Assembly (NCBI GenBank): GCA_949740535.1 | Contig: CATJHO010000090.1 | Span: 1-44,151, forward strand | DNA from: an uncultured Lachnospiraceae bacterium | GTDB taxonomy: Bacteria > Bacillota > Clostridia > Lachnospirales > Lachnospiraceae | Direction: 5' to 3' | DNA: 44,151 nucleotides | Shown here: positions 11,116-14,281 of the stretch, in pieces | How the letters are laid out: each line of letters opens with the position of its first letter | How positions within the stretch are numbered: position 1 is the first letter of the stretch | Position numbers and translations under genes: made by a program | The notes under the pieces: generated by a model | What the model saw: the letters and a program-made list of their open reading frames with translations, nothing else | The model's database searches: none | What the model was told of the DNA's origin: nothing

Positions 11116-11682
11116 ATGGATAAAAAACAGCAGAAAAAAGAACTTCGAAAAGAGATACAGGGATTAAGGAAGGCCCATACGGATCAGGAGATACATGAAA
11201 TGAGCCTTAAGATTCTGGAACGCGTGCAGGAACTTCCCGTATATCAGGAAGCAGAAGTCCTCTATGCCTATATGGACTGCCGGCATGAGGTGGAAACACG
11301 GGATCTCATCCGTACAGCCTGGAAAGCGGGAAAACGTGTAGCGGTCCCCAAGATCGCAGGACAGGAAATGCAGTTTTACTACATCACTTCCTTTGAGGAA
11401 GATCTGGAGGCGGGAAGCTTCGGCATACAGGAACCAAAAGAGACGAATCCTGCCAGCGAAGAGCGCGCCCTGCTTCTGATGCCGGGAGTAGCCTTTGATG
11501 AGGCGTGCCGCCGGGTAGGCTACGGCGGTGGTTTTTACGATCGGTTTCTGGAAGCCCATCCTCAGCTTGCCACTCTGGCACTGGCCTTTGAGTTTCAGGT
11601 GAAAGAGGCCGTGCCCTATGAGGCATTTGATATCCGGCCCGCCCGGATAGTGACTGAGAAACGGGTAATTGAGCGTATATGA
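11116..11682 (+). CDS. 5-Formyltetrahydrofolate cyclo-ligase
   Basis: The enzyme converts 5-formyl-tetrahydrofolate to 5,10-methenyl-tetrahydrofolate using ATP, returning a storage folate to one-carbon metabolism. The 188-residue length is typical. The N-terminal basic segment KKELRKEIQGLRK contacts substrate in relatives, and the C-terminal signature RVGYGGGFYDRFL (about residues 133-145) is diagnostic. It starts 8 nt after the DUF896 gene. A structured repeat element fills the gap up to proA. Confidence 0.94.
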   Translation: MDKKQQKKELRKEIQGLRKAHTDQEIHEMSLKILERVQELPVYQEAEVLYAYMDCRHEVETRDLIRTAWKAGKRVAVPKIAGQEMQFYYITSFEEDLEAGSFGIQEPKETNPASEERALLLMPGVAFDEACRRVGYGGGFYDRFLEAHPQLATLALAFEFQVKEAVPYEAFDIRPARIVTEKRVIERI

Positions 11683-11822
11683 AACTGCAGTCAGGGGACT
11701 GCGGAACTGGAAAAACAGCAGAGCCCGGACAGCACCTAGAAGGATTTACGGACGGCATTGAACGGCCGGAAATGCTTCTGTTACAGAGGTGCGGTCAGGG
11801 GACTGCGGAACTGGAATAGGAG
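11681..11822 (+). repeat. Structured intergenic element, copy A (before proA)
   Basis: This stretch of about 142 nt runs from the stop codon of the previous gene to the Shine-Dalgarno of proA. It contains a direct repeat of 23 nt (11690-11712 and 11794-11816, core CAGGGGACTGCGGAACTGG). The first repeat makes an 8-bp hairpin, CTGCAGTC-AGGG-GACTGCGG (11685-11704). Between the repeats a 14-position stem (11738-11751 with 11766-11779; 12 pairs, two mismatches) closes a loop beginning and ending in ACGG. A second copy with compensatory base changes lies at 13633-13782. Confidence 0.75.
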
Positions 11823-11828
11823 TTTTCA

Positions 11829-13073
11829 ATGAATGTATTAGAGCACATTGGAAAAGAGGCAAAGAAGGCAGCGCCTGTGCTTGGCACCTTGTCCACGGAG
11901 AAAAAAAATCAGGTTTTACTTAAGGCTGCCAGCAATCTGACTGCCGGCATGGATCGGATTCTTGCTGCAAATGAAAAGGATATGGAACAGGGACGGGCAA
12001 AGGGTATGAAGGCCGGTCTTTTGGATCGTCTTAAGCTGACGCCGGAGCGCATTGAGGGAATGGCGGAAGGGCTTAGACAGATTGCCGGTCTTGCGGACCC
12101 CATCGGTCAGGTGATCGAAGAACACAGGCCGCCAAACGGCCTTAGGATCCGTCAGGTACGGGTGCCTCTGGGTGTCGTTGGCATTATCTATGAGGCCAGA
12201 CCCAATGTGACAGCCGATGCCTTTGGTCTCTGCTTTAAGACCGGCAATGTGGCAATTCTGCGGGGTGGAAGCGATGCCATACATTCCAATCACACGATTG
12301 TAGAGATACTTCAGGAGACGCTGGCAGCACAAGGCTGTCCGGTTTCCGCCATTTCTCTGCTGGAGGATACCAGCCGTGAGACGGCTGCGGCTTTTATGCG
12401 GCTGAACTCCTATATTGATGTACTGATTCCCAGAGGAAGCGCCGGGCTGATTGCGGCGGTGGTAAAGAACAGCACTGTGCCGGTAATTGAGACGGGTTCC
12501 GGAAACTGCCATATTTATGTGGATGAGGCAGCGGATCTTTCCATGGCAGTGGAGATTGTATACAACGCCAAGACCCAGCGCATCGGTGTGTGCAATGCCT
12601 GTGAATCCCTGGTGGTACATGAGAAGGTGAGAAATGCCTTTCTGCCCCTGCTGGCGGAGCGGCTGTCTGAAAAACAGGTAGAGCTTCGGGGGGATGCGAG
12701 GGCCAGAGAAGCCGTCCCTATGAAAGAGGCTTCCCAGGAGGACTGGGGAATGGAGTATCTGGATTATATTCTCTCTGTGAAGGTGGTAGACAGCCTTTCA
12801 GAGGCGGTTTCTCATATTAACCAATACAATACAGGGCATTCCGAAGCAATTATTACAGAGGATAAAGCCCACGCAGAGCAGTTTCTGCGGGAAGTGGACG
12901 CCGCTGCCGTCTATGTGAATGCATCCACCCGGTTTACGGACGGTTTTGAGTTTGGTTTCGGGGCGGAGATCGGAATCAGTACCCAGAAGCTTCATGCAAG
13001 AGGCCCTATGGGACTTTTGGCCCTGACTTCTTACAAATACAAGATTTACGGAAAGGGACAGGTAAGAAAATAG
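11829..13073 (+). CDS. proA: Glutamate-5-semialdehyde dehydrogenase
   Basis: ProA reduces gamma-glutamyl phosphate to glutamate 5-semialdehyde with NADPH, the second step of proline synthesis in the cytoplasm. The 414-residue length is normal. The catalytic cysteine lies in [14 protein letters not shown] (Cys255), and [20 protein letters not shown] and [10 protein letters not shown] are family motifs. proB, the usual partner, is not in the window. AGGAG at 11818-11822 belongs to the end of the structured element upstream, so any folding there could affect translation. rsmD starts one base after the stop. Confidence 0.96.
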
Positions 13074-13074
13074 C

Positions 13075-13632
13075 ATGAGAGTCATTGCCGGAACAGCCAG
13101 GAGCCTTCCCCTGAAATGCATCGAGGGGCTGGAGACGCGTCCCACCACAGATCGGATTAAGGAAACACTTTTTAATATGCTTCAACAGGAGATTCCGGGC
13201 TGCCGTTTTCTGGATTTGTTTGCAGGCAGCGGATCCATTGGAATTGAAGCTTTAAGCCGGGGGGCCAGGGAAGCGTTTTTTGTGGAACATCAGCAGAAAG
13301 CCGCAGCCTGCATTCAGGAAAATCTGCGTTTTACAAAGCTTTCCGATCGGGCCAGAGTTCTCACAGGCGACGCGGCAGGAGCCATCTATCAGCTGGCAGG
13401 AGAAGGGAAGTTTGATATTATTTTTATGGATCCGCCCTACAATCTGGGTCTGGAGGAGCCGGTGCTGGCTGCTCTTCGCAATTCCCCTCTGGCAGATTCA
13501 GATACCCTTGTAATTCTGGAGAATGCGAAAAACAGCAATCTCAGCTGGATAGAGGAGAGCGGTTTTTCCATCGAGAAAATCAAAACGTACAAAACAAACC
13601 GGCATCTGTTTCTTCGCCGGGAGGATCTATAA
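13075..13632 (+). CDS. rsmD: 16S rRNA (guanine966-N2)-methyltransferase
   Basis: RsmD methylates G966 of 16S rRNA using S-adenosylmethionine. The 185-residue protein starts with the family sequence MRVIAGTARS and carries RPTTDRIKETLFNML, the SAM-binding LDLFAGSGSIGIEALSRGA (about residues 44-62) and the catalytic DPPY motif. It begins 2 nt after proA with a weak AGG as ribosome-binding site, so it is probably translated by coupling with proA. In Firmicutes rsmD is typically next to coaD, as here, but a structured repeat separates them. Confidence 0.95.
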   Translation: MRVIAGTARSLPLKCIEGLETRPTTDRIKETLFNMLQQEIPGCRFLDLFAGSGSIGIEALSRGAREAFFVEHQQKAAACIQENLRFTKLSDRARVLTGDAAGAIYQLAGEGKFDIIFMDPPYNLGLEEPVLAALRNSPLADSDTLVILENAKNSNLSWIEESGFSIEKIKTYKTNRHLFLRREDL

Positions 13633-13782
13633 GAAACAGCCGCAGGGGCTGCGGAACTTAAGATTTGTTTTGACAGCAGTCCCCGGAGCCAGACACAGAT
13701 GAATTTACAGACGGGATTTTAACGGCTGGGAATTCATCTCCACTTGTGGCGGGCATAGGGGCTGCGGAACTTAAAATAGGAG
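13633..13782 (+). repeat. Structured intergenic element, copy B (before coaD)
   Basis: This 150-nt relative of the element at 11681-11822 is in the same orientation and the same setting: from a stop codon to the next Shine-Dalgarno. Its own direct repeat (18 nt, AGGGGCTGCGGAACTTAA) lies at 13644-13661 and 13757-13774. CCGCAG-GGG-CTGCGG (13640-13654) forms the first hairpin. The central stem pairs 13697-13710 with 13726-13739 around a loop bounded by ACGG, as in copy A. Differences in the stem are largely compensated. Confidence 0.75.
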
Positions 13783-13789
13783 ACGAAGG

Positions 13790-14281
13790 ATGATAAGAGC
13801 CATTTATGCAGGAAGTTTTGATCCGGTAACCTATGGACATCTGGACATTATTGTCCGCTCTTCCCGGATCGTGGATGAGCTGGTAGTGGGTGTTTTGAAT
13901 AATCGGACAAAATCTCCGTTGTTTTCTGTAGAAGAACGTGTTAGAATGTTAGAAGAAGTTACCAGAGAGTATTCCAACGTGAAGATCCGATCCTTTACCG
14001 GTCTTCTGGTAGAATTTGCAAAAGAGTGCGGGGCTCATATTATTGTCCGGGGACTGCGGGCAATTACGGATTTTGATTATGAGCTTCAGATGGCGCAGAC
14101 CAACCGGATTATGAGTCCAAAACTGGATACTATGTTTCTGACTACCAGCTTGGAGTATGCATACTTAAGTTCTACGACTGTAAAAGAGGTGGCAGGATTC
14201 GGAGGCGATATTTCTGCCTTTGTTCCGCCTTATGTTCAACAGAGAATGAAGGAGCGTATGGAAAAGCAGGTGAACGGGTAA
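13790..14281 (+). CDS. coaD: Phosphopantetheine adenylyltransferase
   Basis: CoaD transfers AMP to 4'-phosphopantetheine to form dephospho-CoA, the penultimate step of coenzyme A synthesis. The 163-residue protein has the nucleotidyltransferase motif [15 protein letters not shown] (residues 5-19, containing T/HxGH) and the C-terminal [10 protein letters not shown]-like [16 protein letters not shown] with FVPPYV. The length is normal. The Shine-Dalgarno AGGAG is the last part of the upstream structured element. Confidence 0.97.

Follow-up and report, generated by a model that had tools for sequence, protein, structure and literature searches.

What is the structured sequence that fills two neighbouring intergenic gaps, one before proA and one before coaD, in the genome of an uncultured Lachnospiraceae bacterium, and why does each copy stop at the Shine-Dalgarno (SD) sequence of the next gene? 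The window analyzed here is the whole 44,151-nucleotide (nt) stretch of contig CATJHO010000090.1 (assembly GCA_949740535.1), to which all coordinates refer, and an earlier note on it had described the two gaps as one element in one orientation, starting with GAAAC at a stop codon and ending at an SD. Both gaps read in this way, with GAAAC at the stop codons TGA (11680-11682) and TAA (13630-13632), and AGGAG at 11818-11822 and 13778-13782. The shared element stood, but the repeated core proved narrower than had been claimed: it occupies 11713-11817 before proA (105.6 bits with our model R1) and 13671-13776 before coaD (86.6 bits), in both cases on the plus strand. We refer to the family to which these units belong as F1. 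The proA SD directly abuts its unit, in line with a pattern seen across the family, and the coaD SD is identified by its sequence and by a related SD-start spacer in congeners that lack the element. The internal direct repeat that had been noticed in each gap is present, and is recast here as a short, incomplete copy (S1) of the 3' end of that same core, lying just upstream on the same strand, at about 11687-11712 and about 13643-13660 as judged from the sequence. Our answer, which we hold with slightly better than even confidence, is that F1 is a self-spreading, noncoding repeat with a folding sense strand, and that each copy is placed with its 3' end anchored where the SD begins.

In the window's own genome (G000; an assembly of 3.03 Mb that is 84% complete), DNA searches with the first and second gaps returned 51 and 31 matches, respectively (40 candidates scored in each). 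The model R1, derived from 68 anchors that gave 62 complete and six incomplete units, of which 55 were aligned, returned 105 matches, comprising 101 full-length copies and four short ones on the opposite strand. Since 150 of 2282 candidates were scored with R1, the 101 full-length copies represent a minimum. The bracketing of proA-rsmD that had drawn attention to the locus is not special, the proA and coaD units being simply two of about 100 copies, and a regulatory link between the two genes was rejected in view of about 100 unrelated sites. The unit is ~105 nt long (102-111 nt among the aligned units of a second model, R2, built from 69 units) and has the layout AAACAGCAG...(arm)...AGAAGGATTTACGGACGG-loop-ACGGCCGGAAATGCTTCT...(arm)...CTGCGGAACTGGAAT, with AAACAGCAG at its 5' end and GGAACTGGAAT at its 3' end. 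It bears no GTAG or CGTC tag and hence is no tagged palindrome of 20-40 base pairs (bp) of the REP/RAYT type. As had been anticipated, no Rfam family matched at its gathering score between 11640 and 13830, where one chance match to a small nucleolar RNA was returned (E 9.2). Neither 50,697 phage records nor 72,556 plasmid records contained a match to the first F1 unit, and one exact F1 pattern had no match in viral contigs.

The fold of F1 is conserved among its copies. Across the 55 copies, two-sided changes affect 12 of the 22 pairs in the RNAalifold consensus and 11 in a closely similar 22-pair structure of our own. Ninety-six percent of the cells (96.0%) were paired, versus 88.8% in shuffled and 33-51% in slid controls, and there were 85 two-sided compensated cells versus 21.7 ± 3.8 in shuffled alignments (0 of 500 shuffles as high), counts in which the cells come from paralogous copies and so are not independent events. 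Two compensated pairs of the earlier note held across the 55 copies: 11741/11776 (column pair 31/69) is A-U in 42, U-A in 12 and other in one, and 11750/11767 (column pair 40/59) is G-C in 42 and A-U in 13. The third, involving a G-G mismatch at 11743/11774, is not a consensus pair. There were 41 G-U cells versus 9 A-C cells, an asymmetry which indicates that the folded species is the sense single strand, either RNA or single-stranded DNA, and in 98 of 101 units the fold of the sense strand is more stable than that of the antisense strand. Selection for RNA structure, one of the two explanations originally offered, is thereby backed by sense-strand covariation.

Individual copies fold as long irregular hairpins with an asymmetric 3' bulge. 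In the proA unit (-42.7 kcal/mol for 11713-11822) the hairpin has an unpaired 5' tail, AAACA, and an unpaired 3' tail, GGAACTGGAAT; in this fold and in that of the coaD unit (-38.9 kcal/mol for 13671-13782), each extending through the SD, no pairing involves the AGGAG or the ~11 nt that end the unit. The tails are unpaired in the consensus as well, and its outermost pairing is subterminal (GCAG with CTGC), so that the terminal inverted repeats typical of a miniature inverted-repeat transposable element (MITE) were not found in F1. The 3' tail at 11804-11822 reads GGAACT-GGAATA-GGAG, with GGA every 6 nt, and it is possible that this periodic tail is an extended SD or a set of protein-binding repeats.

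The position of F1 relative to genes is equally regular. Of the 101 full-length copies, 89 close their array, and for 86 of these the 3' flank was long enough for their position to be read. In 59 of these 86, AGGAG or GGAGG lies at an offset of ≤2; some SD-like word is present in 77, and the start codon of an open reading frame (ORF) lies within 40 nt in 83. Both AGGAG/GGAGG at this offset and a start codon 5-20 nt further on were found for 57 of the 86, versus 179 of 20,000 control positions taken away from units at the same loci (196 of 20,000 when units were not excluded). The 27 copies without a close AGGAG/GGAGG mostly have a related purine word, e.g., GGAGA, AAGAGG or AAAGGAG, and a few copies (C78:12353, C78:21558, C102 and C75:4661; C and L numbers denote fetched loci) are without a purine word at the expected place. 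Thirteen of the 15 non-coding sense AGGAG words in the window are SDs, and therefore a process directed by AGGAG, combined with the loss of harmful insertions, would look SD-specific. At the other end, the distance from a preceding same-strand stop codon is at most 60 nt for 70 of the 89 copies that come first in their array (at most 100 nt for 75 and at most 300 nt for 83), and thus most copies are intercistronic; a few come after terminator-like sequence, as judged by eye. The proposal of a novel leader RNA did not survive this placement, as an element that mostly sits close behind an upstream stop codon is not a classical 5' leader. At L009 (C133:1053) and similar loci, simple ORF calls have the upstream ORF entering S1 and stopping at the linker TAA, and at such copies the insertion of F1 may have given the upstream protein a different C-terminus.

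Among 84 proteins encoded downstream of F1, 18 were named with NCBIfam, and these are functionally unrelated: proA, coaD, leuD, hisS, ftsY, purine nucleoside phosphorylase, purB, rsmE, aspS, rmlD, ilvD, the acetolactate synthase small subunit, an FtsW/RodA-type protein, ispG, V-type ATP synthase subunit B, glmS, trpS and gyrB. The related downstream functions of a riboswitch-like element were not found among these 18 genes. In the window, the genes that flank the two units, all on the plus strand, are those for 5-formyltetrahydrofolate cyclo-ligase (11116-11682, TIGR02727), upstream of the first unit, proA (glutamate-5-semialdehyde dehydrogenase; 11829-13073, NF001221/TIGR00407), rsmD (16S rRNA methyltransferase; 13075-13632, TIGR00095), upstream of the second, and coaD (pantetheine-phosphate adenylyltransferase; 13790-14281, TIGR01510). 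The sole Rfam match in the whole window is a tRNA gene on the minus strand (225-297, RF00005).

F1 units also occur in tandem, with 10 of 12 neighbouring pairs 0.89-0.98 identical and the other two 0.61-0.63, versus a median of 0.61 over all pairs. S1 (9-39 nt) was detected just upstream of 53 of the 89 first-of-array units and went undetected in 36; in 63 of the 89 it is closer to the 3' end of its own unit than to those of others (mean score 27.5 versus 19.3). Longer 5' partial copies precede F1 units in G002 (L209 and L210), one of the congeners designated G001-G015, and tail-only remnants (AACTGGAATAGGAG and similar) were seen by eye at the congener junctions of leuD in G013, mutS in G002, and purB and aspS in G005. 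Additional CTGGAATA-like repeats lie beside some F1 units (C39, C145:16417 and C85).

A second family, F2, adjoins AGGAG as F1 does, in the same clade. It is 171 nt at full length, structured (-68.0 kcal/mol) and unrelated to F1 in sequence, and was first met in G002 (L180), where it occupies both the proA and the coaD junction; other examples are L317:418-562 and L339-L370. With 40 candidates scored in most genomes, F2 had matches in eight of the genus's 16 genomes, numbering 20-69 per genome in the F1-rich clade and four in G000, and none in the other eight. Within the genus, the genomes rich in F1 are also those rich in F2, G000 excepted. All 47 listed distinct pieces, the query's own locus included, end at 162-171 of 171; their starts vary (position 1 in 13, 42-50 in 17, 72-137 in 12 and elsewhere in five), some being cut by contig ends or runs of N. 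Units inside F2 arrays are without the 5' hairpin, and several arrays begin with a 3' fragment. A constant 3' end with 5' truncation, a trait of target-primed reverse transcription (TPRT), is therefore displayed by F2, and in F1 is represented by the tails seen by eye and by S1. The two families are stacked in both orders at single SDs, as F1-F2-SD (L352 and L354), F1 tail-F2 partial-F2-F2-SD (L339) and F2 partial-F1-SD (L318), which is expected if each new copy is placed next to AGGAG. Another repeat (CAGACAGCGTGTRCGCGAA.AGCCGGACACCGGATAT...) was seen by eye beside F2, on its upstream side, at L357 and L350, in G002 and G012.

The distribution of F1 is patchy. It is abundant in G000, G002, G004, G005, G006, G011, G012 and G013 (44-96 matches, with at most 96 scored), scarce in G003, G010 and G015 (1-4 matches), and was not found in the congeners G001, G007, G008, G009 and G014 or in any of 25 genomes of other genera searched alongside them. 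Across the family, with nine scored candidates per genome, it was found in 10 of 397 genomes, corresponding to nine of 334 sampled genera, and 20 regions from six other genera (G044, G311, G215, G302, G204 and G401) have a like layout. In a 391-genome sample of the class, some family members included, R2 matched the window's own genome only, under strict filters with 10 scored candidates per genome and with the power of R2 unchecked on known positives in that sample.

Nine F1-bearing junctions of G000 were compared in six congeners, giving 52 junction reads. R1 identified F1 in seven of the 26 reads from the F1-rich congeners (G002, G005 and G013), including one copy that has lost its centre, and in none of 26 from the F1-poor G001, G010 and G015. 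In sister species some of these junctions are empty and have their SD. The cleanest empty site is leuD, which reads GGATTATAGGAGG in G001, G010 and G015; in G000 an S1-like sequence and an F1 unit stand between GGATTA and AGGAGG. At the V-ATPase subunit B junction, G001 is empty (GCATAAGGGGAGG), G000 has an F1 unit after TAA, and G005 has a centrally deleted unit at the insertion point of G000. At gyrB, ATAGGAGGTTATATATGAGT is common to G013, with no R1 match, and to G000, with a weak copy (35.2 bits), and therefore the SD and spacer of gyrB are native; mutS is a poor case, being preceded by different genes in different species. Inspection by eye showed no target duplication at empty and filled junctions, the flanks of which have diverged. 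F1 was found at the proA and coaD junctions of no congener (15 proA loci, with coaD in 10 of the 15); the single R1 match among these loci, in G002, is some 1 kb away on the upstream side of proA, outside both junctions. Long gaps with inverted repeats before the SD, perhaps further repeat families, were seen by eye in the F1-poor G015 at aspS (L321) and mutS (L307). The second original explanation, an old palindromic mobile unit, gains from the dispersal, tandem arrays, empty sites and patchy distribution of F1, although MITE hallmarks were not found. The earlier note would have yielded to a lack of further copies or of covariation, and we found at least 101 full-length copies, with covariation present.

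If F1 spreads by being copied against the SD, its products suggest how. Copying would start at the AGGAG side and proceed toward the 5' end, in many cases on a template that is circular or multimeric, yielding either an incomplete last lap or 3' fragment followed by n units and AGGAG, or a full or 5'-truncated single copy. The mover would act in trans and handle both F1 and F2. Insertion would be tolerated since about 11 nt separate the end of the unit's own hairpin from AGGAG, leaving the downstream gene its SD; the hairpin would occupy the space behind the stop codon of the upstream gene and, as a secondary effect, may influence coupling or mRNA decay. A more tentative proposal is that F1 and F2 could together form a class of SD-homing noncoding elements, copied from circular or multimeric folded RNA or single-stranded DNA with a 3' start at AGGAG and dependent on common trans-acting machinery. 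SD homing, if true, would give multi-lap arrays and 5'-truncated copies while sparing the ribosome-binding site of the host gene; to our knowledge, no known transposition system targets the ribosome-binding site in this way.

A number of observations weigh against spreading of this kind. By blastp of the proteins on either side, six of 20 congener F1 regions have a junction in common with a G000 copy, and the best ranks of these six copies among the 101 G000 units were 1, 3, 9, 10, 32 and 35, placing four of the six within the top 10. From their sequences, some F1 copies thus appear to be inherited from a common ancestor, the fold having been kept while the arms changed, and since inherited copies keep the fold in place they can be read as functional; other shared copies are indistinguishable from independent insertions. 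A fast turnover of all F1 positions was considered and proved wrong. No very recent insertion was found between near-identical genomes, in a comparison of one genome per species. S1 in G000 is ≤39 nt (60 nt examined), which is shorter than random drop-off would give, and arrays and tail-only remnants could also result from recombination between S1 and the 3' end. Folds of the window units that include S1 and the flanks pair part of the SD region. Outside G000, in congeners and other genera, the anchoring is weaker, with AGGAG/GGAGG at an offset of ≤3 in 20 of 43 last-of-array units, an SD-like word in 32 of 43 and a start codon within 45 nt in 37 of 43. Lastly, profiles for Y1_Tnp, RVT_1 and Y2_Tnp, run on 24 genomes, matched in 11, 16 and four of them, respectively; there was no Y1, Y2 or RVT_1 match in G000, which is 84% complete, other element-bearing genomes were also without some of the three, and F1 was present at none of 65 loci (about 3 kb each) fetched for 79 such matches. 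We consequently rejected Y1, RVT_1 and Y2 as the mover, their distribution not tracking that of F1.

The alternative that survives best, although we consider it unlikely, is an intercistronic cis-regulatory RNA whose hairpin would control coupling, mRNA processing or decay, its copies being kept for that function. Such a role would suit the compensated changes in the sense-strand fold, the same-junction congener copies that stay paired though their arms differ (aspS, hisS, ispG, gyrA and mutS), the four of six shared-junction copies that look inherited, the 70 of 89 copies within 60 nt behind a same-strand stop codon, and the presence of F2 in G002 at the proA and coaD junctions, where G000 has F1. 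It also has a precedent in PMC2229807, where ERIC RNA alters the processing of neighbouring transcripts and RNase E is involved. It is opposed by the functional diversity of the 18 named downstream genes, by sister species with the same junctions and no F1, and by the existence of tail-only remnants. In a variant of this model, a ribosome-dependent switch might operate, with S1 and the 3' strand as rival partners of the same 5' strand; this sits poorly with the 36 of 89 units in which S1 went undetected. Folds of the window copies gave no support to a simple S1/5'-strand switch: the fold of S1 with the 5' strand favours a hairpin inside S1 in copy 1, and in copy 2 the pairing of S1 to the 5' strand is confined to a short fold and absent from the full one.

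The remaining alternatives differ in how the copies would be made. TPRT by a group II-like or other reverse transcriptase would explain the constant 3' end with 5' truncation and the folded sense strand, yet we judge it improbable, given that RVT_1 had no match in G000, G011, G044 or G204 (incomplete genomes, in which a divergent enzyme could be missed) and that G011 has no such match though its F2 copies are up to 95% identical to the probe. In IS200/IS605 transposition the target lies 5' of the element, and single-strand transposition of the HUH type (IS200/IS605, RAYT or IS91-like) onto CTCCT, the SD complement, would place the target 5' of F1 on the bottom strand in this same geometry; the one end fixed at a short target, the lack of a clear target duplication, and the tandem and one-ended products would also fit. 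We nevertheless regard it as quite improbable: Y1 is missing from the F1 bearers G000, G004, G006, G044, G276, G311 and G401, Y2 was matched in four of 24 genomes with G000 not among them, no F1 was found at the fetched loci, and the G-U excess is on the top strand, the opposite of what a bottom-strand substrate predicts. That there is no dedicated mover, and that microhomology or template-switch errors at the purine-rich SD were followed by selection sparing stop-SD gaps, would accord with the predominance of SDs among AGGAG words in the window and with the extra CTGGAATA tails, but is very improbable in view of two unrelated families amplified in one clade, the constant 3' end of F2 and the near-identity of F1 array mates.

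Returning to F1 as a repeat copied against the SD, two unrelated families with a common SD target in one clade mean that their products constrain the chemistry of copying, and the constant 3' end, truncated 5' ends, arrays and stacking make the movement of noncoding repeats directly testable. About a hundred genes in each such genome have a strong hairpin just before the SD, often right behind a stop codon, and these hairpins should have consequences for the expression of operons and the annotation of genes.

Small dispersed bacterial repeats have long been known, while the movers and targets of many of them have not. We found no description in the literature of an SD-anchored repeat family or of F1. 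The bcr repeats of the Bacillus cereus group are likewise structured, RNA-like and dispersed in the chromosome; they are set apart from F1 by their target, which is TTTAT-like rather than an SD. Non-LTR (long terminal repeat) retroelements, which use TPRT, and IS91-type elements, which use one-ended rolling-circle transposition, have a constant end at the target, a variable other end and tandem copies; F1 resembles them in its one constant end and tandem copies, but neither enzyme family tracks F1. ERIC elements are about 127 bp long. F1 is, like ERIC and YPAL, a small dispersed repeat; these two occur in other taxa, YPAL is 168 bp with target duplications of 3-26 bp, and SD anchoring is mentioned for neither in the available text (PMC2229807). 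The F1 fold could be present, unnamed, among the thousands of candidate RNAs reported from the gut (PMC8040213). According to PMC3733652, REPs are 20-40 bp with GTAG or CGTC tags, and CGTC REPs are apparently without a dedicated transposase. F1 is similarly palindromic, occurs as single units and arrays and has no dedicated transposase known, as with CGTC REPs, but differs from REP/RAYT systems in its length of about 105 nt, its lack of either tag and the absence of a Y1 match in G000 (PMC3733652). The BOX, SPRITE and RUP repeats of Streptococcus pneumoniae are, according to PMC3049150, short, high-copy elements with predicted RNA structures that have spread within the species and can be cotranscribed. 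F1 shares with them its short length, high copy number and structure (PMC3049150). Unlike F1, BOX and RUP have terminal inverted repeats and target duplications, and all the pneumococcal repeats are enriched between convergent genes (PMC3049150), whereas F1 has a polarity and lies at gene starts, against the SD.

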